Source: Oscillospiraceae bacterium
Lineage (GTDB): Bacteria > Bacillota > Clostridia > Oscillospirales > Ruminococcaceae
NCBI GenBank assembly: GCA_024695445.1
Contig: JAILIG010000010.1
Coordinates: 1-33,340 of the forward strand
Length of the DNA stretch: 33,340 nt
Direction: 5' to 3'
This document shows positions 3,670-21,115 of the stretch, one piece after another; position 1 is the first letter of the stretch; every line of letters begins with the position of its first letter. The translations under genes and the position numbers were made by a program. The notes under the pieces were generated by a model. That model was not told the origin of the DNA. It made no database searches and saw only the letters and a program-made list of their open reading frames with translations.

Positions 3670-5363
3670 TCCCCTGCTCCTTTCCCGCCGTCCGCAGACT
3701 GCTCTGCCAGCAGCATATTGTTGACGGCGCTGACCAGTGCCTTGACGGACGATGTGATGATATCGTTGTCGATGCCCGTGCCCCAGTAGCCCGCGCCCGC
3801 ATCAGTCAGAATCTCGACATAGGAGACGGCCTTGGAATCCGAGCCGATCTCCAGTGCGTGCTCGGTGTAGGTGCTGATGTCATAGCGGAAACCCGTATAC
3901 GAGCGGATGGCATTGCTGACGGCGTCCAGACGGCCGTTTCCGGTGTTGGTCGCCGAAGCCGTCGTGCCGTTCAGGCAGAGATCGACCGTCGCCTCAATGC
4001 CGTTGTGCTGGACATAATGCACCTCGGTGATGTTGAGCGGCGCGGTGAGGTTGATATAGTGTGTACGGAAAATTTCGTAGACCTCGTCCGGGGACAGCTC
4101 CTTGTGCAGCCGGTCGGAGATGCCCTTGACCAGATACCCGACGGTCTCGCGCATCTTCTTCGGAAGATTGTAGCCGTAGCGCGTTTCGAGGATATAGCCG
4201 ATGCCGCCCTTGCCGGACTGGCTGTTGATGCGGATGACATCCGTCTCGTAAACTCTGCCGACATCGGCGGGATCAATCGGCAGATAGGGCACGGTCCACG
4301 GCCCGTCATGCCCCTCGGCCCGCCATTTTAGCCCCTTCGCAATCGCATCCTGATGCGAGCCGCTGAACGCCGCATAGACCAGCTTGCCGCTGTACGGCTG
4401 CCGCTCGTTGACGGGCATCCGCGTCAGCTCGGTGCAGAGCTCCGCGGTGCGCGGCAGATCGGAGAAATCGAGCTTCGGATCAACGCCCTGCGAGTACATA
4501 TTCAGCGCGAGCGTCACGATGTCCGCATTGCCCGTGCGCTCGCCGTTGCCGAAGAGCGTGCCCTCGACGCGCTGCGCACCCGCCAGCAGTCCCATTTCCG
4601 TATCTGCGACGGCGCAGCCGCGGTCATTGTGCGCGTGCAGCGAGAGGATGACATGTTCGCGGTATTTCAGATTGTCGGACATATATTCGATCAGGTTGGC
4701 ATACACATGGGGCATGGAGAGCTGTACAGTCACCGGCAGATTGATGATGACCGGATGATCCGCGTCGGGCTGCCAGACATCGAGCACGGCGTTGCAGATC
4801 TCCAGCGCAAATTCCGGCTCCGTGGCCGTGAAGCCCTCCGGCGAATACTCAAAGCGGATATTGCCCTCGTGCGCTGCACGGTATTTCCTGCAGAGCGCGG
4901 CGCCGGACACCGCGATGTCCCGGATCTCCTCACGGCTCATGTGGAAAACCTGCTCGCGGTGCGGCACAGAGGTCGCGTTGTAGAGATGCACGATCGCGTT
5001 TTTGCAGCCTCTCAGCGCCTCAAAGGTCTTTGCGATGATATGCTCTCTGGACTGCGTCAGAACCTGTACCGTCACGCCGTCGGGGATGAGCTCCTGTGTA
5101 ATCAGCGTGCGGCAGAATTCATATTCCGTGTCCGAGGACGCCGGGAAGCCGATCTCGATTTCCTGAAAGCCGATGCGCACCAGCTCTGCAAAGAATTCGA
5201 GCTTTTCGCTCAGCGTCATCGGAATCATCAGGGCCTGATTGCCGTCGCGCAGATCGACGCTGCACCAGTCCGGTGCGCGGTCAATATAGGACTTTTTTGC
5301 CCATTTCATTTCGCCTGCGGGCGCTTCAAAAAACTGTCTCTTGTATTTTTCGGGATGTCTCAT
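3663..5363 (-). CDS. leuA: 2-isopropylmalate synthase (LeuA type 2)
   Basis: LeuA condenses acetyl-CoA with 2-oxoisovalerate, the committed step to leucine. The protein has 566 residues. The N-terminal TIM barrel has the catalytic Arg39-Asp40 in SVDLRDGNQAL and the metal-binding SLHAHNDRG. A linker domain and the LeuA allosteric dimer domain follow (about 430-560, with TATNTGNG-like SATNTGNGRLDAV), so leucine feedback inhibition is expected. The start is the ATG at 5363, where the protein begins MRHPEKYKRQ, behind AGAAAGGAAG; 13 upstream in-frame codons have no ribosome binding site. The SVDLRDGNQAL form and the length are typical of the type-2 (actinobacterial/clostridial) subfamily. It is the first gene of the operon. 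Confidence 0.95.
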   Translation of the reverse strand: MRHPEKYKRQFFEAPAGEMKWAKKSYIDRAPDWCSVDLRDGNQALMIPMTLSEKLEFFAELVRIGFQEIEIGFPASSDTEYEFCRTLITQELIPDGVTVQVLTQSREHIIAKTFEALRGCKNAIVHLYNATSVPHREQVFHMSREEIRDIAVSGAALCRKYRAAHEGNIRFEYSPEGFTATEPEFALEICNAVLDVWQPDADHPVIINLPVTVQLSMPHVYANLIEYMSDNLKYREHVILSLHAHNDRGCAVADTEMGLLAGAQRVEGTLFGNGERTGNADIVTLALNMYSQGVDPKLDFSDLPRTAELCTELTRMPVNERQPYSGKLVYAAFSGSHQDAIAKGLKWRAEGHDGPWTVPYLPIDPADVGRVYETDVIRINSQSGKGGIGYILETRYGYNLPKKMRETVGYLVKGISDRLHKELSPDEVYEIFRTHYINLTAPLNITEVHYVQHNGIEATVDLCLNGTTASATNTGNGRLDAVSNAIRSYTGFRYDISTYTEHALEIGSDSKAVSYVEILTDAGAGYWGTGIDNDIITSSVKALVSAVNNMLLAEQSADGGKGAGEC

Positions 5364-5410
5364 GACGGAGCTTCCTTTCTCTCTGCTTGATCCGGGCAGC
5401 ATTGCACAGG

Positions 5411-5444
5411 AATAAAAAAGCCCCCTTGCCGGAACGGGAAGGAG
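5411..5444 (-). terminator. Intrinsic terminator in the leuA leader (candidate attenuator)
   Basis: Read on the minus strand, the arms CTCCTT (5439-5444) and AAGGGG (5422-5427) pair, with one G-U. A CCG-TTC-CGG inner stem sits beyond a C-C mismatch. CTTTTTTATT follows at 5411-5420. The terminator lies about 55-90 nt downstream of the likely start site and about 50 nt before the leuA ATG, with no gene in between, so by position it is an attenuator. Confidence 0.75.
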
Positions 5445-5504
5445 ACGGAATGCGGCGCGGAGCTTTGCGGCGCTGCGCCCTGCGCAATGAGCTTCTTTCT
5501 TCTT

Positions 5505-5533
5505 ATTATATATCAGGTTTGCGGCTTTGTCAA
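5505..5533 (-). promoter_or_regulatory. Consensus sigma-A promoter for leuA-ilvB-ilvN-leuC
   Basis: On the minus strand there is TTGACA (5528-5533), 17 nt, then TATAAT (5505-5510). Both hexamers match the consensus perfectly. The predicted start is near 5498. Confidence 0.88.
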
Positions 5534-5593
5534 GCCTTTTGCGGGATTTTCTGTGCAGATTGCCGTACAGCAGCGGGAGTATGCGGTTTTATC

Positions 5594-5622
5594 TTGACTT
5601 CTTCCGAAAAATCATGTATAAT
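5594..5622 (+). promoter_or_regulatory. Near-consensus sigma-A promoter of the plus-strand fusion-gene operon
   Basis: TTGACT (5594-5599), 17 nt, then TATAAT (5617-5622). The predicted start is near 5629, giving a leader of about 86 nt before the first ATG. Confidence 0.88.
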
Positions 5623-5714
5623 AAATCAGTATGGATTGCGGATGCTGCGTGACAGTGCGGCGTCTGCGGGGAGACGGCAGTGTGATTCTGCCGAGGAAGA
5701 AGGAGAAAAAGATA

Positions 5715-5960
5715 ATGATGTATTTTGTTCCCATGTCGGCGGGCTTTTCGTACATTGATCCCGCCATTACCAGCTACCTCATCCAGATCGGCGTCGGCGT
5801 TGTGATCGCAGCGGGCACAGCTATCGGTGTCTACCGCAGCAAGATCAAGCGTGCGCTGAAGCGGAAGCAGGACGAGGAGACCGCTCCGGCGGCTGTGCGC
5901 CCCGCAGAGCGCGAAAAGGACGAGGTCACGGCAGCCGATCTGCTCGACGACAACGACTGA
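5715..5960 (+). CDS. Small single-pass membrane protein, first gene of the YidC-TagF operon
   Basis: I do not recognise a named family. The 81-residue protein has one hydrophobic segment (about residues 15-35, SYLIQIGVGVVIAAGTAIGV) preceded by YIDPAIT. A basic stretch (RSKIKRALKRKQ) follows, then an acidic tail ending DLLDDND. The charge pattern suggests that the C-terminus is in the cytoplasm. The start is the ATG at 5715, with AAGGAG ten bases upstream. An in-frame ATG at 5631 lacks a ribosome binding site and lies at the predicted transcription start. The YidC-TagF fusion gene begins 21 bp downstream, so the protein is probably an accessory partner of that enzyme. This role is inferred from context only. 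Confidence 0.8.
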   Translation: MMYFVPMSAGFSYIDPAITSYLIQIGVGVVIAAGTAIGVYRSKIKRALKRKQDEETAPAAVRPAEREKDEVTAADLLDDND

Positions 5961-5981
5961 GCTTTCCGCGGAGGCTTCCGA

Positions 5982-8009
5982 ATGATACGAACACTCGGCA
6001 CGGCGCTCGGCTGGATGATGCGCCTGTGCTTCCGTCTGACCGGCCATTACGGCCTGAGCATCATCCTCTTTACGCTGCTGACCAAGGTGCTGCTCTTTCC
6101 GGTCAACCTGTGGACACAGAAAAACTCCATCCGCATGGTGCAGCTTATGCCGGAGGAGAATGCCCTGAAAATCAAGTATATCGACGACAAGGACAAGCTG
6201 GCGGACGAACGGCTCGCGCTCTATAAGCGCTACCACTACCGCCCGCTCGCCGGCATGATTCCGCTGCTGATTCAGATTCCGCTCGTGCTGGGACTGGTGT
6301 ATGTCATCTATCATCCGCTGTCCTTTGTGCTGCGGATTCCCGGTGATGCGCTCTCCGGCCTCCGCGAATGGCTCGCGGCGCTGCCCGGCATCGCCGAAAT
6401 CACCGAAAACTCGTATCAGCCGGGCATCATCTCGCAGATCAAGGCCGGCGTGCTGCCGCAGGGCGCACAGTTTGCCGATGCTGTCTCGCAGATCGCCGGA
6501 CTGAACACGCGCTTTCTCGGCATCGACCTGAGCGCGATGCCCTCGCTCGCAAACCCGGCCGTCCTGCTCGTGCCGCTGTTCTCCGGCCTGAGCGCTTGGC
6601 TCATGTGCTGGGTGCAGAACCGCATCAACATCCTTCAGGTGACACAGGGCAAGCTCAACAAGTTCCTGACCACCGCGTTTATGATCGCGTTCTCCGCATA
6701 CTTTGCATTTCTGGTGCCCGCCGGCGTCGGCCTGTACTGGATTTTCGGCAACCTCTTTGCGATTCCGGTCATGTACCTGCTCAATCTCGTCATGCCGCCG
6801 CAGAAGTATGTCGATCTCAAGGTGCTGCGCGAAATGGACGCCCAGCGGCAGGAAAAAGAGCGCATTCACAAGCAGTACCGCGCCAAGGAGAAGGAGGACT
6901 GCCGCAGATTTGCCGCCGAGCAGAACAAGCGTCTCGTCTTTTACTCCGAGCAGAGCGGCTTTTTCAAGTATTTCTCCGCAATCATCGACTATATCTGCGA
7001 GCACTCGGATGTCATCATCCACTATGTGACCAGCGATCCGAACGACAAGATCTTTTCGGATCCGCGGGAGCAGATCAGGGCGTACTACGCCGCCTCGGAC
7101 ACCAGCCTGATCCCGCTTTTCATGAAGCTCGACTGCGATATCTGCGTCATGACCGTGCCGGACCTCGAAAAATACCATGTCAAGCGCTCCAGAGTGCGTG
7201 CGGATGTGGAATATATTTTCACCTCGCACGGCATGGGCAGCACGGCGCTGACCTTCCGCAAGGGTGCGCTCGACTGGTTTGACACCGTGTTCTGTCCGGG
7301 CCCCGACACCTTCTCGGAGATCCGCGACGCCGAAGCACTCTACGGCACGCCGAAAAAACGCCTCGTCGAGACCGGCTACCCGCTGATCGACGAGATGATC
7401 GCACAGTACGAGAGCACGGAGCACTCCGAAAACGCCGTGCCGCGCATCCTGATCGCGCCGTCCTGGCAGCCGGACAACATCATCGACCTGTGCGTGGAGC
7501 CGCTGCTCGCCGCACTCGCCGAAACCGATTACGAGGTCATCCTGCGCCCGCATCCGCAGCAGGTGCGGCATGAACCCGAAAAATTTGAGCTGCTGAAGCA
7601 GCAGTATGCGGACAACCCGCATCTTCAGATCCAGACCGACTTCTCCTCGAACAATCCGGTCATGGAGTCTGATATCCTCATCACGGACTGGTCGGATATT
7701 TCGTGGGAATTCGCCTTTGTCACCAGGCGTCCGGTGCTGTTCATCGACACGCCGATGAAGATTATGAATCCCGAATACGACAAAATCCGGACCAAGCCGA
7801 TCAACATCACGCTGCGCAATGTCATCGGCAGATCGGTGAAGCCCGATGAGGTCTCCGGCGTTCCGGCGATCATCGCGGAAATGCTTGCAAAGCGTGAGGA
7901 CTACCGCGAAATCATTGAAAAAACGCGCAGTGAACGCATCTACAATCTCGGCCAGAGCGCAAAGCTCTGCGGCCGCTATATCCTGAAATCACTGGACGGA
8001 AAAATCTGA
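5982..8009 (+). CDS. YidC/Oxa1-type insertase fused to a TagB/TagF-like CDP-glycerol glycerophosphotransferase
   Basis: This is a 675-residue two-domain protein. Residues 1-275 read as a YidC/Oxa1 core: the first conserved helix GLSIILFTLLTKVLLFPV, the amphipathic/coiled region, GMIPLLIQIPLVLGLVYVIY, and the last helices with LVPAGVGLYWIFGNLFAIP. The groove arginine of Bacillus-type YidC (R72/R73) is replaced by Lys35. A charged linker (about 280-315) leads into a glycerophosphotransferase domain (about 316-670) with HGMG (His416), APSW (492-495), RPHP (His524) and TDWSDISWEF (568-577). The two histidines match those needed by TagF enzymes. Oxa1 C-termini are cytoplasmic, so the transferase would face cytosolic CDP-glycerol-type donors. 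GGAGG lies seven bases before the ATG. It probably acts in teichoic-acid-like or phospho-glycan synthesis; its substrate is unknown. Confidence 0.9.
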   Translation: MIRTLGTALGWMMRLCFRLTGHYGLSIILFTLLTKVLLFPVNLWTQKNSIRMVQLMPEENALKIKYIDDKDKLADERLALYKRYHYRPLAGMIPLLIQIPLVLGLVYVIYHPLSFVLRIPGDALSGLREWLAALPGIAEITENSYQPGIISQIKAGVLPQGAQFADAVSQIAGLNTRFLGIDLSAMPSLANPAVLLVPLFSGLSAWLMCWVQNRINILQVTQGKLNKFLTTAFMIAFSAYFAFLVPAGVGLYWIFGNLFAIPVMYLLNLVMPPQKYVDLKVLREMDAQRQEKERIHKQYRAKEKEDCRRFAAEQNKRLVFYSEQSGFFKYFSAIIDYICEHSDVIIHYVTSDPNDKIFSDPREQIRAYYAASDTSLIPLFMKLDCDICVMTVPDLEKYHVKRSRVRADVEYIFTSHGMGSTALTFRKGALDWFDTVFCPGPDTFSEIRDAEALYGTPKKRLVETGYPLIDEMIAQYESTEHSENAVPRILIAPSWQPDNIIDLCVEPLLAALAETDYEVILRPHPQQVRHEPEKFELLKQQYADNPHLQIQTDFSSNNPVMESDILITDWSDISWEFAFVTRRPVLFIDTPMKIMNPEYDKIRTKPINITLRNVIGRSVKPDEVSGVPAIIAEMLAKREDYREIIEKTRSERIYNLGQSAKLCGRYILKSLDGKI

Positions 8010-8026
8010 GAAAGGGGGGCTGACTG

Positions 8027-10573
8027 ATGCAGGCGATTATTCTGGCTGCCGGCATGGGAAAACGCCTCAAGGAGCTCACAAAGGACAATACCAAGTGCAT
8101 GGTGAAGGTCAACGGCGTGCGCCTGATTGACCGGCTGATGGGACAGCTCGAAACACTGCACCTGACACGCGTCGTCGTTGTCATCGGCTACTGCGGCGAG
8201 GCGCTCAAGGCACATATCCGTTCCCTCGGACTGGAAACGGAGGTCGTCTTTGTCGAGAACCCGATCTATGACCAGACCAACAACATCTATTCGCTCTGGC
8301 TCGCGCACGAATGGCTCTGCGCCGAGGACACGCTGCTGTTTGAGTCCGACCTGATCTTTGAGGGCCGGATCGTCGAGCAGCTCATCGCAGATCCGCGCCC
8401 GAACCTCGCACTCGTGGACCGCTACGAGAGCTGGATGGACGGCACCTGCGTCAAAATCGACGCCGAGGATCACATTCTCGGCTTTGTGTCCAAAAGCAGC
8501 TTCCGCTTCAGCGAAGCCGCCGACTACTACAAGACGGTTAATATCTATAAATTCAGCCGCGATTTCTCCGCGAACCAGTATGTCCCGTTCCTCGAAGCGT
8601 ACAGCAAGGCGATGGGCAACAACCAGTATTACGAGCAGGTGCTGAAGATCATTGCGATGCTCGACAGCTCCCGCATCCAGGCGAAGCGCCTCTCCGGCGA
8701 ACGCTGGTACGAGATCGACGATGTGCAGGACCTCGACATTGCCGAGACGCTGTTCCCGGCGGAGGGCGTCTCGCAGATGCAGCGTATCAGCTCGCGGTAC
8801 GGCGGCTACTGGCGCTATCCCGATCTGCACGACTTCTGCTATCTCGTCAACCCGTTCTTCCCGACGGAGCGGATGCGTGACGAAATGCGCGCCAGCTTTG
8901 ACACGCTCGTCATGCAGTACCCGTCCGGCCTCAGAATCAACCGCATTCTGGCGGCCAAGAACTTCAACGTCCACTTTGAACAGATCACGGTCGGAAACGG
9001 CGCCGCGGAGCTGATCTCCGCACTGACGGCGGAGCTCTCCGGTACGCTCGGCATCATCCGTCCGACCTTTGAGGAATATCCGAACCGCTATGCCGGCGAG
9101 CAGATCGTCTTTTCGGCAGAGGCGCCGGACTTCACCTATACCGCAAAGGATCTGACGGACTTCTTCACCGGCAGCGGCATCTCCGCGCTGGTGCTCATCA
9201 ACCCGGACAATCCCTCCGGAAACTGCCTGTCCCGCGCGGAGCTCAACACCCTCACGGAATGGGCCGGCAGAGAGCGTATCCGCCTGATCGTGGACGAATC
9301 CTTTGCCGATTTCGCGGAGGATTCCGCACTCTCGCTCCTCGACCGCGACTTCCTCGCGGCCAATCCGCAGCTCATTGTCATCAAGAGCATTTCCAAGTCC
9401 CACGGCATTCCGGGACTGCGCCTCGGTGTGCTGGCATCGGGCGATACGCAGCTCGTGTCGGATATCTGCGGACGGCTTGCCATCTGGAATATCAATTCGC
9501 CGGCGGAATTCTATATGCAGATCTTTGAGAAATACCGCGCAGACTACGAGCGCGGACTCTCGCTGCTGCGGGCGGAGCGTGCGCGCTTCTTCGCGGCGCT
9601 CTCTCAGATTCCCGGCATCCGTCCGGTGCCCTCGCAGGCCAATTACATCATGGCCGAGGTCACGGGCAGCGCAGGCTCCGCGGCACTGGCCGAGCTGCTT
9701 TTGCAGGACAATCTGCTCATCAAGGATCTGAGCACAAAGGTCGGCGGCAGGCCGTATATCCGGCTCGCCGTCAAAACGCCGCAGGAAAACGACGCGCTGA
9801 TTGACGCGCTCAAAGCGGCTCTCACACAGACGGTGCGGCCGAAGAACAACTGGAAGCGCATCTGGGAGAAGCGGCAGCTGGACGACAGCTCCTTTGCTGC
9901 CTGCGCCGGCGATGCCGAGGCACTGTTCGTGGAATTAAAGCGCTGCAACGGCTTTGATGTGCAGGGCGGCAAGCTCTCGAAGGAGGCCATGCTCGGTCAG
10001 TATGAGATGATCCGGGAAAAGCTCGGCGCGGGCGCGCCCCGTCCGATGACCTCGGTCTATGAGGTCGGCTGCGGCAGCGGCGCCAATCTGCTGCTCTTTG
10101 CGCGGGACGGCTACCGCACCGGCGGCGTCGATTATTCCGCGGCGCTGATCGACATTGCAAAAAAGGTGCTGGACACGGACGATCTGCTCTGTGACGAGGC
10201 AAAGAATCTGCCCGAAACGCCGGTCTATGACTGCCTGCTCTCCAACAGCGTGTTTGCCTATTTCCAGGATCTCGAATATGCGGAGCAGGTGCTGGAGAAA
10301 ATGCTGCGCAAGACGGTGTATTCCATCGGCCTCATCGACATTTACGACGAGCAGAAGCAGGAGGCGTTCCTCGCCTACCGCCGCGCAACGGTCGAGGACT
10401 ACGAAAAGCGCTACGAGGGGCTCCCGAAGCTCTTTTACAGCCGGAAGTTCTTTACGGACTTTGCCGAAAAGCACGGTCTGCGCGTCGAGTTCCTGCCTTC
10501 GACGGTCGAGGGCTACTGGAACAACGATTTCATCTTCAATGTGTTTCTTTACCGGGACGGCAGTCAGTTATAA
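8027..10573 (+). CDS. Three-domain fusion: LicC-like cytidylyltransferase, fold-type I PLP enzyme, SAM methyltransferase
   Basis: This is an 848-residue trifunctional protein. Residues 1-245 form a nucleotidyltransferase of the LicC type: AAGMGKRLKELT and the P-loop-like Lys, ENPIYDQTNNIYSLWLA with the NNIYSL mark of phosphocholine cytidylyltransferases, and Asp108 in ESDLIF. Residues 255-600 are a HisC/CobD-like PLP domain with GG at 259-260, NPDNPSG (392-398), Asp423, Schiff-base Lys457 in SISKSHGIPGLRLG, and Arg579. Residues 645-848 are a class I methyltransferase with motif I VYEVGCGSGAN (677-687). GGGGGG precedes the ATG by seven bases, 17 bp after the YidC-TagF gene. A plausible but unproven reading is conversion of O-phosphoserine to phosphoethanolamine, N-methylation, and CDP activation. 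The PLP part could instead be an aminotransferase. Confidence 0.88.
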   Translation: MQAIILAAGMGKRLKELTKDNTKCMVKVNGVRLIDRLMGQLETLHLTRVVVVIGYCGEALKAHIRSLGLETEVVFVENPIYDQTNNIYSLWLAHEWLCAEDTLLFESDLIFEGRIVEQLIADPRPNLALVDRYESWMDGTCVKIDAEDHILGFVSKSSFRFSEAADYYKTVNIYKFSRDFSANQYVPFLEAYSKAMGNNQYYEQVLKIIAMLDSSRIQAKRLSGERWYEIDDVQDLDIAETLFPAEGVSQMQRISSRYGGYWRYPDLHDFCYLVNPFFPTERMRDEMRASFDTLVMQYPSGLRINRILAAKNFNVHFEQITVGNGAAELISALTAELSGTLGIIRPTFEEYPNRYAGEQIVFSAEAPDFTYTAKDLTDFFTGSGISALVLINPDNPSGNCLSRAELNTLTEWAGRERIRLIVDESFADFAEDSALSLLDRDFLAANPQLIVIKSISKSHGIPGLRLGVLASGDTQLVSDICGRLAIWNINSPAEFYMQIFEKYRADYERGLSLLRAERARFFAALSQIPGIRPVPSQANYIMAEVTGSAGSAALAELLLQDNLLIKDLSTKVGGRPYIRLAVKTPQENDALIDALKAALTQTVRPKNNWKRIWEKRQLDDSSFAACAGDAEALFVELKRCNGFDVQGGKLSKEAMLGQYEMIREKLGAGAPRPMTSVYEVGCGSGANLLLFARDGYRTGGVDYSAALIDIAKKVLDTDDLLCDEAKNLPETPVYDCLLSNSVFAYFQDLEYAEQVLEKMLRKTVYSIGLIDIYDEQKQEAFLAYRRATVEDYEKRYEGLPKLFYSRKFFTDFAEKHGLRVEFLPSTVEGYWNNDFIFNVFLYRDGSQL

Positions 10574-10586
10574 TCCCCCGACATTC

Positions 10587-10629
10587 AAAACGGCAGTACA
10601 CTGCATCAGACAGTGTACTGCCGTTTTTT
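10587..10629 (+). terminator. Strong intrinsic terminator, probably bidirectional
   Basis: Arms of 17 bp (10587-10603 and 10611-10627) flank a 7-nt loop, and a run of six T occurs at 10624-10629. On the minus strand the same hairpin is followed by TTTT. It lies between the convergent fusion-gene operon and the ABC transporter operon and can serve both. Confidence 0.92.
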
Positions 10630-10678
10630 CAGCTTTGCACCGCAGCCGCTTTCCAGATCAGATGCGGACACTGCGCGC

Positions 10679-13423
10679 TTACTCTGCGTTTTTCAGCGCC
10701 AGCACCTTCGGGATTCTGCGGATGCGCAGGAAATCGCAGACCGAGATGATGAGATAGGCCGCCGTGACCAGCGCAAACTCCCTGACAAAGCCCTCCGGCT
10801 TCATGATGAATGCGAAGTAGCCGCTGAGCCCCTGCAGCATGATCTCCCACATCCGCTTCATCGCATAGTAGCCGATCACAATCGCAATCAGCTCCGTGAC
10901 GATGACGACAAGCGCCGTTGTGAGCAGATAGAGCCGTGCGATCTCGCCGTCCTCATAGCCGAGGATCTTCACCATCGAAATCGGCCGCTCGTTCTTTTCG
11001 ATGATGATTTTTGTCAGCAGATACAGGATAATCGCGGCAACGATCATGCAGACATACTGGAAATACAGGATGTAGTTTCCGAAGGAATGATCGAGCTGCT
11101 TTGCAATTTTCATCATGTCGTCCGATGTGATCCGCTTGACAATCTGCTGCTCGTCCACATCGGAAATGGCCGCGTCCGAGAGGTAACCGGTGAAGGCGTC
11201 CGCGTCCCGTTCAAAGATCTCGTTGAAGCGGTCGTTCTGCATGAACACGGTCAGCGCCGCGTCGTAGTCATACACGCCGGCGACATTCCATGTGTACTGC
11301 TTGTTTTCGTACTTTTCATGCAGCGTAAACCGGTCGCCCGTGCTCAGGTGATACTTCTTTGCAAAGGCCGTGGAAATCCACATATCATCCGGATTTTTCT
11401 CCTCCGTCAGGCGGACATAGCGGCTGTTCGGCGCGATGCCGTAAACCGCGATTTCCTCGTTGTACTTCGCAGTGCGGTATTCCAGCGCGTTCATCGAAAA
11501 CGGCTCTGCGCCTTCCGTCTCCGTGCGGACGATTTCGCCGTCCTCATCCCTGTAATCGGTCAGGATGACCTGCTCCCTTGCAAACATCATGCCCGGCATG
11601 GTTTCCTGATAATAGGAGAGCGTCGAGGGCAGTCCGACCACCAGCGAGAGCAGCAGCATCACAAAGCTGATGCCCACAAACAGCATCAGATAATTGGGAA
11701 TATTCTGCAGCAATACGCGCAGACGGAACCGCCGGAAGAAGCTCCAGCGCGGCAGACGGACTGCCTTTTTGCGGCGCGTTTTCTTGAGGTCGTGCCGCAG
11801 GAATTTCAGCGGGGACAGCCGCAGCATCCGGACAATGACGATCAGGTTGATCGCCAGCATCAGCACAAACGGCACAACCGTCGTGCGGATGAACGCCTCC
11901 GGCGTCCAGAGCGTTTCATAGGTCGGCAGGCTGTAGCTTTGGTAATACATCCCGACCGCGATGTCTTTGAATACCGTGTAGCCGAGCACATTGCCGACAA
12001 TCGCCGCCAGCACGACGATCAGCAGCGGCGCGCTCATGTAGTAGCGCAGCAGCTCGCCCTTCGTGAAGCCGGACGCCCGCAGCGTACCGATCACGGAGGC
12101 CTCCTTTTCCAGCGTGCTGCTGATGTTCACCGCGAAAATGAACGCGAGCACCGCCGTCAGCACATAGAGAATGACGCCGCACATCGCCACATCCGAGCCG
12201 AGGTCATCCTCCGCAAAGGTGATGGCGTGGTTTGCATACGCCGGCACATAGTCCTTGATTTCCAGCTCTTTTTCGGACACGGCGGTCTGCGTAATCAGCG
12301 CCTTGAGGAAGTGATCGGACAAGGTCTTTTCCTCGTACAGATCGGCAGGCGCGTTTTTGTAGGTAAAGGCGTAATTTGCGTGCAGCGCCGTGCCGATGCG
12401 TGCAAAGCCCTCATCCGTCACCATGCCGACATTGAAGGTCAGCGCATCAAACATCGTGTCGGTATTGCTCTCAAACAGTGTGATGTAATCGGTGAACGAG
12501 GCAAGCCCGACGACCTCAAACTCCGCGCCGTCTGCCCTGACCGTGTCGCCGATCCGAATGCCGGCATTGTCCGCGTGCATCCGGTCGATGATGATTTCGC
12601 GGTCATTCTCCGGCGCTCTGCCGGACAGCAGATCGTAGAGATTGACTTCCCTGCGCTCGCCGTACACCCGGACGGTCCCTTCAAAATCCGGACTGCCGGG
12701 AAGATGCTCCTCCGCGTTTTTATAAAACAGCTCATACACACGGACCGGCACCGCGTCAAACAACCGGTCGAGCTCGTAACGCTCCGCCAGCTTGTCATAT
12801 TCCCTGTCGATCTCTTTGTCAATCTCGTCATGCGCCTTGCCGGTCGCTTCGGAGAGGGCGTTTTTGTAGTCCTCCGAGTCCCAAGCCGCGTTCAGCGCAT
12901 CGCGGACCGCCTGTTCGTAGTTCTCATTCATTGCGGCTTTGAGCGCATTGTCAACGCTTTCCTGCCGGATTGCTTCGGGCAGGTCTGCGCCGGCCTCCGC
13001 AAGCTGCGCGTCCACCGCCGCGGTCACCTGCTCCGTGATTCCGGCCTTCACCTGCTCGCGGACCTTTTCCTCTACGGCCTCCCGCACCGCCTTTTCAATG
13101 TCCGGTGCGGCTTTTTCGTACGCCCGCTCGCGGAAAATCTTTGCCATATCGGCTTTTTTGCCGGTTTCAATCGCTGCGATGATATCCGGATCGGCAGCGC
13201 GGGACAGCTCGAAATGCCCGTTCTCCCGGTGAAATTTCTCTGCATTGCTGCTGAGCGAGGCCATCATGCTTTTGTTTCCGACATACATTCCCGAAACAAA
13301 TCCGATCGTGACGACCAGCATCGCAAAGATCATCAGATAACGCTTCCAGTCGCGCAGCAGATCGCGGCAGACACGGCGGCGCAGCGGATTTTTCGGACGC
13401 TTTCCAAACTGAATGTGTTCCAT
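10679..13423 (-). CDS. FtsX/MacB-like ABC transporter permease with a large extracytoplasmic coiled-coil region
   Basis: This 914-residue permease is the membrane partner of the ATPase encoded just upstream. One helix near residues 28-50 (YLMIFAMLVVTIGFVSGMYVG) is followed by a large outside region. That region includes a charged, heptad-like stretch (about 100-230, with repeats such as VREAVEEKVREQV). A first FtsX-type domain has several helices (about 415-545, with the GTLRASGFTKGELLRYYM loop), and a second set of helices and a C-terminal FtsX domain follow (about 575-910). The duplicated FtsX layout is typical of the large Gram-positive permeases that export lipids or peptides or sense antimicrobials. 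GGAGG precedes the ATG by seven bases and lies next to the ATPase stop codon. The substrate cannot be read from the sequence, but the manganese riboswitch upstream is a clue to regulation. Confidence 0.9.
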   Translation of the reverse strand: MEHIQFGKRPKNPLRRRVCRDLLRDWKRYLMIFAMLVVTIGFVSGMYVGNKSMMASLSSNAEKFHRENGHFELSRAADPDIIAAIETGKKADMAKIFRERAYEKAAPDIEKAVREAVEEKVREQVKAGITEQVTAAVDAQLAEAGADLPEAIRQESVDNALKAAMNENYEQAVRDALNAAWDSEDYKNALSEATGKAHDEIDKEIDREYDKLAERYELDRLFDAVPVRVYELFYKNAEEHLPGSPDFEGTVRVYGERREVNLYDLLSGRAPENDREIIIDRMHADNAGIRIGDTVRADGAEFEVVGLASFTDYITLFESNTDTMFDALTFNVGMVTDEGFARIGTALHANYAFTYKNAPADLYEEKTLSDHFLKALITQTAVSEKELEIKDYVPAYANHAITFAEDDLGSDVAMCGVILYVLTAVLAFIFAVNISSTLEKEASVIGTLRASGFTKGELLRYYMSAPLLIVVLAAIVGNVLGYTVFKDIAVGMYYQSYSLPTYETLWTPEAFIRTTVVPFVLMLAINLIVIVRMLRLSPLKFLRHDLKKTRRKKAVRLPRWSFFRRFRLRVLLQNIPNYLMLFVGISFVMLLLSLVVGLPSTLSYYQETMPGMMFAREQVILTDYRDEDGEIVRTETEGAEPFSMNALEYRTAKYNEEIAVYGIAPNSRYVRLTEEKNPDDMWISTAFAKKYHLSTGDRFTLHEKYENKQYTWNVAGVYDYDAALTVFMQNDRFNEIFERDADAFTGYLSDAAISDVDEQQIVKRITSDDMMKIAKQLDHSFGNYILYFQYVCMIVAAIILYLLTKIIIEKNERPISMVKILGYEDGEIARLYLLTTALVVIVTELIAIVIGYYAMKRMWEIMLQGLSGYFAFIMKPEGFVREFALVTAAYLIISVCDFLRIRRIPKVLALKNAE

Positions 13424-13435
13424 GCAGCCGCCTCC

Positions 13436-14152
13436 TTACCATTCCAGCGCGGCGGCTGTGATTTTCTCTGTATTGCGGTCATCATGACGGATCCGGCCGT
13501 CGCGCAGCTTGATGACATGGTCTGCCATGCGGCGGATCGCCTCGTTGTGCGTGACCATGATGACCGTGTTGCCGTACTTCTGATTGACCTCCTCGATCAG
13601 CCTGAGAATCTCCTTGGATGTGGTGTAGTCGAGCGCGCCGGTCGGCTCGTCGCAGAGCAGAATATCCGGGTTCTTGACGATTGCGCGCCCGATGGATACG
13701 CGCTGCTGCTGTCCGCCGGAGAGCTGGTTCGGGAGCTTGTACCGGTGCTCAAAAAGGCCGAGAATCTTCAGCAGCTCGTCGATATCCAGCGGCTGCTCCG
13801 AGAGATACGCGCCCGCCTCGATGTTCTCCTTGACATTGAGGTTCGGGATGAGGTTGTACGCCTGAAAGACATAGCCGAGATGTCTGCGGCGGTAGCGTGT
13901 CAGGCCTTTTTCATTCATGTCTTCGAGCTTGTCCCCGTTGATGAGGATTTCACCCTCGTCCGCGCTGTCGATGCCGCCCAGAATGTTCAGCAGCGTCGAT
14001 TTGCCTGAGCCGGAAGGTCCCAGCAGCACACAGAATTCGCCCCTGCTGACCGTGAAATCCAGCCCGCGCAGGACATCCTGCTTCGTGTCGCCGCTGCCGA
14101 AGCTCTTTTTCAGGCCGCGGACCTCCAAAAACTTTCTTTCTGCTTCGCTCAT
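13436..14152 (-). CDS. ABC transporter ATP-binding protein (LolD/MacB type)
   Basis: This is the ATPase of the MacB/FtsX-like exporter. It has Walker A GPSGSGKS (45-52), the Q-loop in [10 protein letters not shown], the signature LSGGQQQR, Walker [13 protein letters not shown] and the switch histidine in VTHN. The DEPTGALD form is typical of the LolD/MacB/Salivaricin-type ATPases that pair with FtsX permeases. The start is taken as the ATG at 14152, nine bases after GAGG. An ATG two codons earlier (14158) is only three bases from it. The stop codon overlaps the ribosome binding site of the permease gene. The gene is the first behind a yybP-ykoY riboswitch. Confidence 0.94.
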
Positions 14153-14199
14153 GTTCATGTACCTCGTTTCTCTTCACATTCGGATGTCTTTTTTCGGGC

Positions 14200-14234
14200 A
14201 AAACAAAACGGACATGACCGAAAGCCATGTCCGT
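14200..14234 (-). terminator. Intrinsic terminator forming the expression platform of the riboswitch
   Basis: On the minus strand, 9-bp arms (ACGGACATG, CATGTCCGT; 14208-14216 and 14226-14234) enclose a 9-nt loop and are followed by TTTTGTTTT (14200-14208). It lies about 55 nt downstream of the aptamer and before the ATPase gene. The CAUGU at the 3' end of the aptamer could pair with ACAUG of the terminator arm, which would allow switching. Confidence 0.85.
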
Positions 14235-14289
14235 GAAGATCAGATTCAGACTTCATGCATAGCTTACGGCAGGTGATTCGCCCAAAAGT

Positions 14290-14380
14290 TATACATGAGT
14301 CTCGCAAATTAAAACAAGCCAGACCGAAAGGCCAGGATGTTGACTTGTTGCTCGAAAGAGCTTGCTACTCCCTCATTACG
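14290..14380 (-). ncRNA. yybP-ykoY (manganese) riboswitch aptamer
   Basis: On the minus strand, P1 pairs ATGAG (14372-14376) with CTCAT (14295-14299). Inside it lie the two conserved halves of the family's metal loop, GGAGTAGC (14364-14371) and GCGAGA (14300-14305). A GCTC-TTTC-GAGC hairpin follows as P2. P3 is formed by AACAAG and CTTGTT, with GTCAACATCC as the second loop, and P4 is topped by a CTTTCGG-type loop. This arrangement matches the yybP-ykoY family, which binds Mn2+ and usually activates metal exporters. A promoter, the aptamer, a terminator and the coding sequence are all in the expected order. Confidence 0.85.
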
Positions 14381-14385
14381 CTTTT

Positions 14386-14414
14386 ATTCTAATGCAGAAC
14401 CGCTGCTTTGTCAA
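14386..14414 (-). promoter_or_regulatory. Promoter of the riboswitch and ABC transporter operon
   Basis: On the minus strand there is TTGACA (14409-14414), 17 nt, then TAGAAT (14386-14391). The predicted start, near 14380, is just before the aptamer. Confidence 0.85.
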
Positions 14415-14570
14415 GAGGTATACCGCAATCATCATAAAAATCCAGAAATCGAATAAAAGCATTTCTGCTTCGGGCATTGTTCATGTGCAGAATAGCCGTC
14501 GGATACGGGAAGCGCCGCCTGCCGGCGATGCAGCCACTTCAGACGCCGCGGCAATCCCGGAGATATCCTG

Positions 14571-14716
14571 TTAGCAGCAGCTAATCACAATCCAAAAGAA
14601 AACGGTTAGTAACTGCTAACCGCGTTTATTTTAGCACTTCCGCCCTGATTTGTCAAGCAGTTTCAGCGAATCAGACGGATTTTCGTGAGTTTGAATAATA
14701 GTATGCTAACGCTAAC
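14571..14716. promoter_or_regulatory. Cluster of GCTAA-type inverted and direct repeats (operator-like)
   Basis: TTAGC-AGCA-GCTAA is a perfect inverted repeat (14571-14584). CGGTTAG and CTAACCG form a second one (14603-14609 and 14616-14622), directly downstream of the -10 element of the orphan promoter. GCTAACGCTAAC is a direct repeat (14705-14716), about 50 bp upstream of the -35. The second repeat is also followed by TTTTCTTTT on the minus strand, so a terminator reading is possible, but it overlaps the predicted start site, which favours an operator. Confidence 0.6.
14628..14656 (-). promoter_or_regulatory. Orphan consensus-like sigma-A promoter
   Basis: On the minus strand there is TTGACA (14651-14656), 17 nt, then TAAAAT (14628-14633). 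The predicted start is near 14621, inside an inverted repeat. No annotated gene follows before the riboswitch promoter 210 bp away, so it may be a second, regulated promoter of the ABC operon or drive a small RNA. Confidence 0.75.
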
Positions 14717-14777
14717 TAAATGCGTTGTACGGTCTGCCGGCAGCACTTCATTATGAATCCGCCGGAGATACAGCTAA

Positions 14778-14815
14778 GGGGGACGCCCGCTGCCGCAGGG
14801 CGTCCCCCTCTTTTT
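14778..14815 (+). terminator. GC-rich hairpin downstream of clpE, with a T-run in plus orientation
   Basis: Arms of 11 bp (14778-14788 and 14798-14808) enclose a 9-nt loop, and TCTTTTT follows on the plus strand. On the minus strand, the direction of clpE, only TTAGC follows. It may stabilise or end the clpE transcript, but the canonical U-run is on the opposite strand, where no gene was found. Confidence 0.7.
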
Positions 14816-14872
14816 CCGTCCGGAGTGCGATGAGGCGTAAAGCCCCATTGGAATCCGGAGATACCGCTTAAT

Positions 14873-17194
<2,322 letters not shown>

Positions 17195-17262
17195 TGTATC
17201 ACTCCGGCACCCGCACGGCAGCGGATGCCTGCTCCTTTCTTCCCGTCCCCGCTTCCATTCTG

Positions 17263-18174
17263 TCAGAGAATGATGTCGAGGTGGTTATATAAATGGCTGA
17301 ACAGCTTGGATTCCTGAATCGTCGGCTCGTTGAAGCACAGCAGATTGCCGCCGCCCAGCATGACTAGAAGCCGCACCACCAGCGTCATCAGCATCAGAAC
17401 GGTCAGTGCCTCGATCACGCCGACCAGCGCGCCGAGCACCCGTTCCTTGGTGCGGGTGTTATTGAAGAACATTGTGTTTTCCAGCAGCGCGCCGATGACC
17501 GCCGCAATGACCATGATGATCGAAAAGATAATCAGATAGCTGAAAATCTGAAGCACCTCCAGCGTCGGCTCCTTTGCAAAGGACTCCTCGGAGAAGGTCA
17601 CGGCCTGTGACGCGGTGTTCGGTGTGCGCAGCAGGGAAATCAGCTCCCGCATCATATACGGATCCGATGCAGTCTGCTTTTCAAAATTGGCGCGGACATA
17701 CGCCGGCAGATAATCGTCCAGCGCCTTGCCGTAGCCTGCCGTCACGGCATCGTAGACCACCTTGCGTGTCTGGTCGATGTTCAAAAACTCGTTGCCGCCG
17801 TTCTTCTGCTTGAACAGCGTATAGAGCCTGCCGACAAACCGGTCGCAGTCATCCGAATCCAGATAGCTGCGGACAATACCCTTATCGACCGTGAAACCGT
17901 ACTGGTTGGTGTTCACGGCCGTGCTGACACAGGCCGACAGGTCAAAATGCCGGTGTGCATCCTCGATCGCGGAGACAGTTGTATCCTGTGTCACGCCGTC
18001 ATACAGCACCGGCGCCATCGCCATTGAGACGAAAGATGCCGCCAGCGCAGAGACAAAATATCCGATGCCCAGCACCAGAACCTTGGTCACGCCTCGTTTT
18101 CCGTTTGAATAAATGACAAAAATACAAATGATGATGACCAATGCGTCAAAAATCCACCAAAAAAAGGTGCTCAT
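17263..18174 (-). CDS. CvpA-like membrane protein with an extracytoplasmic insertion
   Basis: This 303-residue integral membrane protein resembles the CvpA (colicin V production) family, whose role is still poorly defined. Two N-terminal hydrophobic helices (about 7-22 and 30-55) and two C-terminal ones (about 208-232 and 250-280) flank a soluble region of about 145 residues. Ordinary CvpA proteins lack so large a middle part. The motif VLGALVGVIEALTVLML near the third/fourth helix is the CvpA-like element. The start is the ATG at 18174 (MSTFFWW), with GGGAGG 10 bases upstream. A start 12 codons earlier would add the charged stretch MQMHEIREDETG. The next gene, clpE, follows 68 bp downstream of the stop. 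Confidence 0.7.
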   Translation of the reverse strand: MSTFFWWIFDALVIIICIFVIYSNGKRGVTKVLVLGIGYFVSALAASFVSMAMAPVLYDGVTQDTTVSAIEDAHRHFDLSACVSTAVNTNQYGFTVDKGIVRSYLDSDDCDRFVGRLYTLFKQKNGGNEFLNIDQTRKVVYDAVTAGYGKALDDYLPAYVRANFEKQTASDPYMMRELISLLRTPNTASQAVTFSEESFAKEPTLEVLQIFSYLIIFSIIMVIAAVIGALLENTMFFNNTRTKERVLGALVGVIEALTVLMLMTLVVRLLVMLGGGNLLCFNEPTIQESKLFSHLYNHLDIIL

Positions 18175-18218
18175 TCCTGTTTCATCCTCCCGTATCTCGT
18201 GCATTTGCACGAACTTCG

Positions 18219-18249
18219 GCTGTCCGGATGCTCCGGCAGCTTTTTTTCT
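18219..18249 (+). terminator. Intrinsic-terminator signature on the strand opposite to the operon
   Basis: GCTG-T-CCGG (18219-18227) and CCGGCAGC (18233-18240) form a GC-rich stem with one bulged base, followed by TTTTTTT (18241-18247) on the plus strand. All neighbouring genes are on the minus strand. A second hairpin, TCGTGC-ATTT-GCACGA (18197-18212), lies just upstream of the cvpA-like gene's ribosome binding site. Confidence 0.6.
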
Positions 18250-18272
18250 GTCTGTAATATGGAATCCTGACT

Positions 18273-19448
18273 TTAACCCTTAAAGGATACGCGCTCGATC
18301 CGGTCATATCCGGTGAGAAAAACATATGAACCGATTTGCAGGAAGCTGCTGCAGCTGTCGTTGACCGCCGCCGTGTTTCCGACGGAGCCGTTCAGATGCA
18401 GGCTTTCCAGCCTTGCCCGGAGCTGCACCAGCACATTTCTGCTGTCCGGCAGCAGCCCGATGCTCTTGACTGTCTTGTCATAGACATGGCAGAGTGGGTT
18501 TGTCGCGTCACCGTTGAGAATGGCAACGGTGTAGGTGTGTTTGTCATCATTGCGGAGCAGCACCGCCGCCGTATCACCGACACAGTCTCCCCCTGCGAGT
18601 GTATCGGGGTAGCGGAAGGTACTCAGAACCGCGCCGCGGCTGTCCAGATAAGAGGCTGCTTCATCTCCCAGCAGGAACAGTCCGCTATCAGTATTATATA
18701 CCGAAATCACGAGCATGTCAAGTGGCTGACTGCTCCAAAGATCACCGGATTTGAAGCTGTATGCGTGGACAACGGACTGCATGGAGCCGTTTTTCACGCG
18801 GATGCTGACCGCGTAACAGCCCGAACCGTCCGGCATGAACGCCGCCTCCGTGATGTCCTCGACGCAGTTCCGCTCGTAGTACGCCTGCCCCTTGACATTG
18901 AAGACCAGCAGCCGGCAGGAACAGCTCTCGGACGAGGTCACGAGCAGCACCTCGCCCTCCCCGGACACGCGCCCGAAGATGATGCTGTCCGAAATGCTCT
19001 TTTCATATTTCATGCCGGAGCTGTTGTCGAGCCGGAACCGCCCGCCGCCGCTCTCATAGACCAGCGCATAGCCGCCCGCCGCCTGAAGCATCGGGCTGCC
19101 GTAGGTGTGCTGGCGGGACGAATGCAGCGAGCCGTTTGTCTCGTAGATATTTAAGTAGCTGTCGCTCAGGACGAGCAGCTTCTGGTTCATCTTCCCGATC
19201 TGGTAGCCCTCGCCGCCGTAGACCGGCAGCGGGAACTCGCCCTCTGCCGCAGAGCCGTCGCCGCGCATACTCTGATGCTTGGAGCCGATCGTCTCCAGAC
19301 GCGGGATCCAGATGTCCCGCTTCTGATACAGCAGCAGCAGCACGCCGGCAATCGCCAGACACAGCAGACTGCGCCTGAGCATCCGGAGCCGCCGCTTCCG
19401 GCGGCGCACCGCGTAAAGATCGGGTGCTTCCTCTTTTGGTCTGCTCAT
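18273..19448 (-). CDS. DUF5711-like membrane-anchored beta-propeller protein
   Basis: A 391-residue protein with a strongly basic cytoplasmic N-terminus (RRRKRRLRMLRR), one signal-anchor helix (about 27-41, LLCLAIAGVLLLLY) and an outside domain of about 340 residues. The outside domain is rich in beta strands with repeated blade-like patterns (LLVLSDSYLNIYETNG, LLVFNVKGQAYYERN, VHAYSFKSGD), as in PQQ-like propellers. It matches what I know of DUF5711 proteins from Clostridia; their function is unknown. The ATG overlaps the truA stop codon by four bases (ATGA), so the two are translationally coupled. The stop is 98 bp before the CvpA-like gene. Confidence 0.75.
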   Translation of the reverse strand: MSRPKEEAPDLYAVRRRKRRLRMLRRSLLCLAIAGVLLLLYQKRDIWIPRLETIGSKHQSMRGDGSAAEGEFPLPVYGGEGYQIGKMNQKLLVLSDSYLNIYETNGSLHSSRQHTYGSPMLQAAGGYALVYESGGGRFRLDNSSGMKYEKSISDSIIFGRVSGEGEVLLVTSSESCSCRLLVFNVKGQAYYERNCVEDITEAAFMPDGSGCYAVSIRVKNGSMQSVVHAYSFKSGDLWSSQPLDMLVISVYNTDSGLFLLGDEAASYLDSRGAVLSTFRYPDTLAGGDCVGDTAAVLLRNDDKHTYTVAILNGDATNPLCHVYDKTVKSIGLLPDSRNVLVQLRARLESLHLNGSVGNTAAVNDSCSSFLQIGSYVFLTGYDRIERVSFKG

Positions 19449-20227
19449 GGCTCTCCCCTTTCCGGATTGTTCTGTCTGAACGGCAGGTCGTCCCCGTAAA
19501 ACACGCGGTTGAGATACAGTCCGTGTGCCATTGCCGTTCTGCCCGCGCAGAGGCGGTCTTTTGCCGCGATGATGCCGCCCAGCGCATCGGGCGGGAATAC
19601 GCCCTCGTTGATGTCCAGCAGTGTGCCGACTAAGATCCTGACCATATTATACAGGAAACCGTCGCCGCTGACAAGCACCTCGGCCATATCTTCATATTTT
19701 CTTACGGAAATCGCATAGATTGTCCGCACGCAGTCTGTCTCCGGCTTTGCCTGTGCGCAGAAACTGTGAAAGTCATGCGTCCCGACGGCGGCCTGTGCCG
19801 CTTCGTGCAGCAGCGCCGTATCAAGCGGGCGGCGGTAGTGATACGCGAGATCGGTCAGAAACGGGTTTTTGCTCTCATGATTGTGAATGCGGTACAGGTA
19901 CTCCTTGCCCTTGCAGTCAAACCGCGCATGAAACCCCGGCGCGGCGTCCTCGCAGCTCAGCACCGAGATGTCGTCGGGCAGATAGCCGTTCAGGGCGCGG
20001 GTGAGGTTTTTGCAGCGGATCTCCCGCTCCGTGTGCAGATGCAGCACGAACCGGTTGGCGTGTACCCCCGTATCCGTCCGCGAGCAGCCGTAAACGGTCA
20101 CGGGGCCGTTCAGCACGCGGGCAAGCTGCGCTTCCAGCTCTCCCTGCACGGTTCTCGCATTGGGCTGCCGCTGAAAGCCGTGGTAACGCGTTCCTCTGTA
20201 CGCGACGGTCATTTTGATGGTCCGCAC
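19445..20227 (-). CDS. truA: tRNA pseudouridine synthase A
   Basis: TruA makes pseudouridine at positions 38-40 of tRNA anticodon stems. The 260-residue protein has the catalytic Asp52 in CSRTDTGVHA, the N-terminal AYRGTRYHGFQRQPN motif, the HDFHSFC segment and the C-terminal MVRILVGTLLDINEG motif. The start is a GTG at 20227 with GGGAG nine bases upstream; the ATG five codons on has no well-spaced site. It follows ecfT, as it does in most Firmicutes. Confidence 0.96.
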   Translation of the reverse strand: MRTIKMTVAYRGTRYHGFQRQPNARTVQGELEAQLARVLNGPVTVYGCSRTDTGVHANRFVLHLHTEREIRCKNLTRALNGYLPDDISVLSCEDAAPGFHARFDCKGKEYLYRIHNHESKNPFLTDLAYHYRRPLDTALLHEAAQAAVGTHDFHSFCAQAKPETDCVRTIYAISVRKYEDMAEVLVSGDGFLYNMVRILVGTLLDINEGVFPPDALGGIIAAKDRLCAGRTAMAHGLYLNRVFYGDDLPFRQNNPERGEP

Positions 20228-20308
20228 CGGCGGTATCTCCCTTCCTTGTTTCTGTTCTGTGCAGCGGATTATCCGGGTGGAAACCCTCCGGCAAATGGAT
20301 TTCTCCGC

Positions 20309-21115
20309 TTACCCCAGCACCGCGTTGATGACGATGACCGCCGCCAGCAGCAGAACAGTCAGTGCCAGCGCGATATAATCCCGGAGACCGCTTTTCAGCA
20401 CGCGCAGACGGGTTCTGCCCTCGCCGCCGTGATAGCAGCGGCATTCCATTGCCAGCGCCAGCTCCTCGGCGCGCCGGAATGCGGAGACAAGCAGCGGAAT
20501 CAGCACCGGCACCAGCGACTTTGCACGCTGAATCAGCCCGCCGCTTTCCATGTCGGCGCCGCGTGCCTTCTGTGCCGCCATGATCTTGTCCGTTTCCTCG
20601 ATCAGTGTCGGAATGAACCGCAGCGCAATCGACATCATCATCGCCAGCTCATGCACCGGCAGCTTCAGCTTTTTCAGCGGGGAGAGCAGCGACTCAATGG
20701 CGTCCGTCAGCACGATCGGTGAGGTCGTATAGGTCAGCAGCGAGGTGCCGGCAATCAGCAGACAGATGCGCACGATCATAAAGACCGACGCCTGCACGCC
20801 CTGCTCGGTCAGCTTCAGGAATTTCCACTCCCAGTACACCGTGCCGCCGCCGAAGAAAAACAGGTTCAGAAAGCCGGTGAAAATCAGAATCGGCACGATC
20901 GGCTTGAGGCTCTTGACCAGCATCTTCGGCGGAATCTTCGAGCAGGCCGTCGCAATCACGACGAACACAAAGCCCGCGATCAGCGCCGTGACGCGCTGCC
21001 CCCAGAACAGCATGACCAGAAACAGCAGCGTGATGACGATTTTGAACCGGGCATCCATGCGGTGAACCACCGAATCCATCGGGAAATACTGTCCGAGTGT
21101 GATGTCCTTCAGCAC
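20309..21115 (-). CDS. ecfT: ECF transporter transmembrane component
   Basis: EcfT joins the EcfA1-EcfA2 ATPases to substrate-binding S components for vitamin and metal uptake. The 268-residue protein has about five to six helices (LLFLVMLFWGQRVTALIAGF, PILIFTGFLNLFFFGG, VFMIVRICLLIAG, and a C-terminal pair). The coupling helices carry KARGAD and AMECRCYHGGEGRT, the two Ala-Arg-type motifs that dock the ATPases. The start is a GTG at 21115 that overlaps the ecfA2 stop by 7 bp. No S component is encoded here, which fits a shared group II ECF module. Confidence 0.95.
   Translation of the reverse strand: MLKDITLGQYFPMDSVVHRMDARFKIVITLLFLVMLFWGQRVTALIAGFVFVVIATACSKIPPKMLVKSLKPIVPILIFTGFLNLFFFGGGTVYWEWKFLKLTEQGVQASVFMIVRICLLIAGTSLLTYTTSPIVLTDAIESLLSPLKKLKLPVHELAMMMSIALRFIPTLIEETDKIMAAQKARGADMESGGLIQRAKSLVPVLIPLLVSAFRRAEELALAMECRCYHGGEGRTRLRVLKSGLRDYIALALTVLLLAAVIVINAVLG

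Follow-up and report, generated by a model that had tools for sequence, protein, structure and literature searches.

A YidC-TagF-like fusion operon of an Oscillospiraceae bacterium, a candidate system for surface tailoring with phosphoethanolamine-type head groups

Several described pathways resemble parts of a three-gene operon located in a 33,340-nucleotide stretch of an Oscillospiraceae bacterium genome (NCBI assembly GCA_024695445.1, contig JAILIG010000010.1, positions 1 to 33,340; hereafter the window). The first open reading frame (ORF1) encodes a small membrane peptide, ORF2 a YidC module fused to a TagF-like transferase, and ORF3 a fusion of cytidylyltransferase, pyridoxal phosphate (PLP) and methyltransferase domains (Table 1). 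In the Pnt pathway, as outlined in PMC6697681, a LicC-like enzyme activates a two-carbon phosphate or phosphonate with cytidine monophosphate (CMP) and can be fused to a PLP enzyme (6pd1), and the pathway is thought to end on surface glycans or lipids. ORF3 resembles this arrangement, and sister clusters of the operon likewise hold phosphoenolpyruvate (PEP) mutase, Ppd and cytidylyltransferases. However, the PLP domain of ORF3 is a CobD-like domain of class I/II (Aminotran_1_2) instead of a class V 2-aminoethylphosphonate (AEP) transaminase, the window genome gives no PEP mutase match, and the downstream set is TagF-like, YidC and sulfatase rather than LicD. The Lic pathway for phosphocholine shares the LicC-like cytidylyltransferase, and in other bacteria LicD adjoins ORF3-type genes (NTP-CobD below). 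Unlike Lic, the operon holds no choline kinase domain and its head group is apparently made de novo by the CobD-like domain; a single LicD query gave no match in the window contig.

The remaining known relatives concern the transfer of the head group. The transferase domain of ORF2 shares its fold and its His-Pro and Asp-x-Ser motifs with TagF/TarL and Cps3D, but it is fused to YidC, no supply of cytidine diphosphate (CDP)-glycerol was found, and identity to the TagF and TarL structural matches is 16%. Partner proteins with membrane spans followed by an AlkP-fold domain resemble EptA/MCR and LtaS, but they have a sister form fused to YidC and are partnered with a cytosolic CMP-head-group transferase. 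The PF02096 module of ORF2 is that of YidC/Oxa1, except that its C-terminal tail is replaced by an enzyme and that the sister form lacks the groove charge. The supply half of the system belongs to known Lic/Pnt logic. The transfer half has YidC fused to either enzyme and accompanied by a further subunit, the YIDP peptide. No description of this half, with its YidC-transferase or YidC-sulfatase fusion, was found in open-access papers, in agreement with an earlier model-made annotation of the window (the sequence-only reading), which knew of no system with this content.

We consider it moderately probable that the operon and its partners constitute a phosphoethanolamine-type surface-tailoring system. 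What was computed is the gene content, the homology of domains, the shuffling of fusions, the conservation of active-site residues and the phosphonate sister clusters; which substrate is used, in what order the steps run, what the acceptor is and what YidC does are our inferences. ORF2 matches PF02096 (60KD_IMP) at 119.8 bits against a cut-off of 35 and PF04464 at 41.4 bits against 22.1. Its structure model has a predicted local distance difference test (pLDDT) score of 81.6, with residues 116-172 poor, and Foldseek searches of the PDB with this model placed TagF on top (3l7k, 3l7l) and TarL at rank 4. A profile of the transferase domain picks up Cps3D and TarL by sequence, while the curated TarF model NF041712 scored 13.1 bits, below its cut-off of 550. 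All 17 transferase rows have the residues His416, Arg522-Pro-His524, Asp569 and Ser571 in common. The model and the TagF fold match bear out ORF2 as a predicted transferase at the membrane, as first proposed.

Conservation was examined by scanning genome contigs with ORF3, one genome per species over 84,980 species, and the best 80 of 198 relatives were kept. A YidC-transferase fusion flanks six of these 80 (L004, L005, L007, L029, L048 and L069), so that the three genes, taken as one unit by the sequence-only reading, are co-located in six relatives. Five of the records have the order YIDP, YidC-transferase, NTP-CobD, and L069 holds the same genes in a different order; L004 and L029 are near-identical to one another. 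Because gene order recurs at YidC-domain identities as low as 31% (L048), the operon is neither chance nor an assembly artefact. The nearest relative found, L005, is a rumen Oscillospiraceae metagenome-assembled genome with 84-93% identity over ORF2 and the on-contig part of ORF3. When a profile of the YidC-transferase fusion was used in place of ORF3, 5 of 391 Clostridia genomes were positive, the window genome included, and these represent four families; the five other sampled members of its own family lack the fusion. This patchy spread suggests horizontal transfer or loss. A sample of 398 genomes from the phylum, overlapping the class sample, contained YidC-sulfatase genes in two genomes, intact YidC-transferase genes in two (one being the window genome) and a stand-alone transferase in G753.

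Homologues of ORF1 are defined by a YIDP motif ahead of a single membrane span. ORF1 matched no Pfam family, for which a longer reading of the ORF was scanned, and no NCBIfam family. YIDP genes occur in all 10 other YidC-transferase loci, sometimes apart from the fusion gene (by about 2 kb in L114 and 4.5 kb in L117). The motif is fused to a sulfatase in L115, and 27 of the 28 stand-alone transferases carry it N-terminally, a count that leaves out L115 (its transferase being fused to YidC) and has L151 as its exception. The small membrane protein had been read as a dedicated site of transfer; it is instead a shared module and no special acceptor.

Clusters neighbouring these genes revealed a second fusion, of YidC with a sulfatase-fold protein of the AlkP superfamily, next to a stand-alone transferase. 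The system comprises four modules, namely the YIDP membrane peptide, YidC, the TagF-like transferase and an EptA/LtaS-like sulfatase-fold protein, arranged as YIDP / YidC-transferase / sulfatase in L007, L069, L114 and L116, as YIDP-sulfatase / YidC-transferase in L115, and as YIDP-transferase / YidC-sulfatase in a third type of locus. Since the fusions are reshuffled between genomes in this way, we take the products of the four modules to work together. With no more than two genes scored in each genome, 11 of the 391 Clostridia genomes proved to carry a YidC-sulfatase, and a YIDP-transferase lies within 3 kb of 13, and within 8 kb of 15, of the 18 genes listed. The model of the L011 YidC-sulfatase (pLDDT 78) has EptA, MCR-1 and LtaP/LtaS as its nearest folds, and the AlkP-type Asp, Thr, His and Asp-His columns are kept, as judged by eye, in the 12 sulfatase rows printed, that of the window genome included. 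A sulfatase is encoded in the fetched stretch of five of the 11 YidC-transferase loci, the window counted among the 11 (L007, L069, L114, L115 and L116).

In the genome of the window (G000; 2.88 Mb in 190 contigs, 89% complete), a single protein matches PF00884 at E up to 0.001; its gene is on contig C39 (G000:C39:8783-10675). The protein lies at the PF00884 cut-off of 25, with 24.6-25.8 and 23.5 bits in separate scans, and is 36% identical (E 4e-113) to the protein encoded beside the operon in L007. Two neighbours of the gene encode MBOAT and AlgX-like proteins. The three-gene set had been called complete, a view that does not hold, as relatives add a sulfatase-fold protein and the window genome encodes one on another contig.

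Sister modules adjoin PEP mutase in 8 of 40 loci examined. In L117 and L118 both PEP mutase and phosphonopyruvate decarboxylase exceed equivalog cut-offs. L151 has PEP mutase, the decarboxylase and AEP aminotransferase over such cut-offs together with a cytidylyltransferase, followed by a transferase with 36% identity to that of ORF2 and by two sulfatase-fold genes; as a whole, L151:4694-13724 is a cluster for CMP-AEP with a TagF-like transferase and two sulfatase-fold membrane proteins. In L010 and L011 (about 6000-21800) two YIDP-transferases (the second truncated where the locus stops), three YidC-sulfatases and NTP-CobD are accompanied by PEP mutase, an alcohol dehydrogenase and Ppd, such that both head-group routes occur in one locus.

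Co-occurrence was also apparent at the level of genomes, in tests that ignore relatedness and in which many module genomes come from one genus. PEP mutase is found in 11 of 15 module genomes versus 1 of 12 hand-picked others (Fisher p 0.0014), PEP mutase or NTP-CobD in 14 of 15 versus 2 of 12, and NTP-CobD alone in 5 of 15 versus 7 of 376 (p 2.7e-5). The window genome gives no PF13714 match at E 1e-20, a search that was positive in 11 of the 14 other module genomes. Three of the four module genomes without PEP mutase carry NTP-CobD. These data are most simply read as a family of machines whose substrates are CMP-activated two-carbon phosphates or phosphonates; the variant in the window would make a phosphate, of the ethanolamine phosphate type, by decarboxylation.

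ORF3 exceeds the Pfam cut-offs for NTP_transf_3 (PF12804; 41.3 versus 27), Aminotran_1_2 (90.1 versus 19.7) and Methyltransf_11 (35.5 versus 21.2). Among solved structures, the cytidylyltransferase domain matches PntC (6pd1) and LicC (1jyk), and the CobD/HisC-like PLP domain matches a threonine-phosphate-decarboxylase-like enzyme and CobD; of the 107 families matched, TIGR01140 (CobD, L-threonine-O-3-phosphate decarboxylase) is best at 165.4 bits against a cut-off of 290.55. A literature search on the role of structure 6oux gave nothing. The LicC/PntC-like matches uphold ORF3 as the predicted maker of a CDP-activated head group, as the sequence-only reading had it. The methyltransferase is a separate gene in L004, L006, L007, L029 and L052. 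Elsewhere, NTP-CobD genes adjoin those for LicD, a CDP-alcohol transferase (L031), octopine dehydrogenase and OCD/mu-crystallin. The latter two families act on amines and imines; an amine-bearing head group would suit them and the methyltransferase alike. Given the content of the sister clusters and the presence of PEP mutase or an ORF3-type enzyme in nearly all module genomes, the likeliest head group is ethanolamine phosphate, which may be N-methylated, and not glycerol phosphate.

Other neighbours of NTP-CobD may bear on its substrates. Octopine dehydrogenase or OCD/mu-crystallin genes lie directly 3' of it at L045:11842-12861, L009:11816-12910 and L077:11815-12759, which suggests an N-carboxyalkyl ethanolamine phosphate. 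A parallel would be opine-type ethanolamine phosphate in O antigens, on which no paper was found. A DUF1015 protein is encoded directly 3' of NTP-CobD in two Bacilli (L039:12144-13190, assigned by Pfam, and L043:11860-12957, assigned by cluster membership) and might supply O-phosphoserine. A serine-kinase link through DUF1015 in L039 was rejected, as no paper that names both was found, and a search of the phosphoserine decarboxylase literature gave nothing decisive. In the Lachnospiraceae loci L022, L024 and L026, catalytic and regulatory chains of aspartate carbamoyltransferase are encoded directly upstream (assigned by Pfam for L024 and by cluster membership for L022 and L026).

In the mechanism that we propose, the CobD-like domain of ORF3 would decarboxylate O-phosphoserine (or O-phosphothreonine) to ethanolamine phosphate (or aminopropanol phosphate), the LicC/PntC-like domain would convert this head group to its CDP conjugate, and the methyltransferase domain would N-methylate the amine. 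At the inner membrane face, the TagF-like domain of ORF2 would then take the phospho-head group off the CDP conjugate and attach it to a lipid of the membrane or to a lipid-linked acceptor. The YidC module of the fusion would carry the product across the membrane or hold the machine together, the sulfatase-fold protein encoded on C39 would pass the head group to outside surface material, and the YIDP peptide may be the membrane subunit joining inner and outer parts. By the membrane spans of the structure models, and if YidC keeps its usual N-out topology, the TagF-like domain would lie inside and the sulfatase domain outside. EptA and LtaS draw head groups from membrane lipids at the outer face, so an unusual head group using a route of this kind would require a lipid made on the inner face first and then flipped; the parts called for are a CMP-head-group transferase in the cytosol, a module in the membrane and a sulfatase-fold transferase on the outside. 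Making, flipping and transferring, with YidC as the lipid flippase, is the favoured though unproven account, and PMC10491306 describes lipid scrambling in vitro by purified E. coli YidC. We suggest only tentatively that this is an undescribed class of membrane machine whose YidC-derived module has turned into a head-group flippase. In it, a cytosolic TagF-like enzyme would charge a lipid with the CMP-activated two-carbon phosphate or phosphonate, the YidC module would flip the product, and a sulfatase-fold enzyme would complete the delivery outside.

A number of observations weigh against such a system. Six of the 11 YidC-transferase loci, the window included, have no sulfatase in the fetched stretch, and the sulfatase-fold gene of the window genome is unlinked to the operon. 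YidC is not always encoded at the locus, L151 having no YidC match in 15 kb, and no transferase lies near the YidC-sulfatase gene of G241 or the two of G260, a genome that has neither PEP mutase nor NTP-CobD as a supply route. No NTP-CobD gene adjoins the fusion in the four genomes found without the ORF3 query (L114-L117), which makes ORF3 one of several supply routes. The TIGR01140 score, being under its cut-off, allows for transamination by ORF3. Ordinary phosphatidylethanolamine is usable by EptA-like enzymes, and every activity in the scheme is a prediction.

Among the alternatives, an unlikely one gives the YidC module a dedicated part in inserting the YIDP peptide or the sulfatase-fold partner, or in chaperoning its assembly, and leaves action on head groups to the transferase and sulfatase alone. 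ORF1, with its short outer N-terminus and basic inner tail, is of the small, single-span type inserted by YidC alone, and the groove charge is kept as Lys35 in 11 of 11 window-type rows, comparable to Lys or Arg in 11 of 11 housekeeping rows. However, the charge is missing from all 36 YidC-sulfatase rows, which argues that YidC in this sister form is no longer a standard insertase; the same disparity counts against the proposed system, as the two forms may differ in function. Signal-peptide-like N-termini on several YIDP peptides (L029, L069, L116) suggest Sec export, and the window genome already has one further, separate YidC of the housekeeping type. Separate recruitment of YidC by the two fusion types is one possible history: in the tree each type is monophyletic (support 100/100), but their joint origin was not rejected (approximately unbiased test, p 0.30).

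Quite unlikely is a role for YidC as anchor or scaffold only, with head-group transfer to a lipid-linked glycan finished in the cytosol and an ordinary flippase exporting the product; TagF-like enzymes normally act on lipid-linked acceptors in the cytosol and some module loci (the L013 locus) carry polysaccharide flippase genes, but the recurrent outer sulfatase-fold partner, fused to YidC or YIDP, would then be superfluous. That ORF2 makes a short polymer of glycerol phosphate or another of teichoic-acid-like type, which the ORF3 product then caps or decorates, agrees with its PF04464 membership and TagF fold but is highly improbable, as neither TagD nor another glycerol-3-phosphate cytidylyltransferase is among the three PF01467 proteins of the 89%-complete genome (CoaD, NadD and a PRK13670-type nucleotidyltransferase), a further PF04464 match is lacking from it, and L151 has the same transferase subfamily after its CMP-AEP genes. 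With no TagD found, a glycerol phosphate polymer was rejected as first choice. The sequence-only interpretation is therefore partly supported: glycerol phosphate as the transferred group is unlikely and polymer building found no support, decoration with a two-carbon head group fitting better.

Surface tailoring is the presumed role of most bacterial phosphonate clusters, and according to the 2019 paper on PntC (PMC6697681) almost nothing is known of the biosynthesis or roles of phosphonylated glycans and lipids. In gut Clostridia, the module set described here could be the transfer stage that is missing, both for ethanolamine phosphate and for phosphonates. If the proposed mechanism is true, it would provide a general answer to how phosphonates get to cell surfaces, would allow the flipping of lipids by YidC-type folds to be tested in its natural setting, and would parallel, on the phosphoryl side, the three-component glycosylation systems. 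To our knowledge, it would also be the first case of a YidC-family module within a biosynthetic transferase.

The operon is real from promoter to terminator, and each feature that the sequence-only reading had placed in it, including its own promoter and terminator, was located (Table 1). Promoter-like sites number 6 in the interval 4500-11500 versus a mean of 2.9 in shuffles.

Table 1. Features of the three-gene operon in the window
Feature	Coordinates	Strand	Remarks
Sigma-70-type promoter, TTGACT-17-TATAAT	5594..5622	+	Consensus match only, 11/12 positions
ORF1, 81 aa, YIDP-motif membrane peptide with one hydrophobic span	5715..5960	+	ATG at 5715, GAAGGAG ribosome site
ORF2, 675 aa, YidC module (residues 1-275) and TagF-like transferase (276-675)	5982..8009	+	
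ORF3, 848 aa, cytidylyltransferase (about 1-245), CobD-like PLP domain (246-600), S-adenosylmethionine (SAM) methyltransferase (601-848)	8027..10573	+	
Intrinsic terminator, hairpin with T run	10586..10630	+	-28.0 kcal/mol; absent from pattern-scan list

Searches with Rfam at gathering level and for tRNAs gave no match across the window, and this includes any known leader RNA for the divergent leuA side. Upstream of the divergent leuA and acetolactate-synthase-like genes, a perfect TTGACA-17-TATAAT promoter sequence is present at 5505-5533 on the minus strand.

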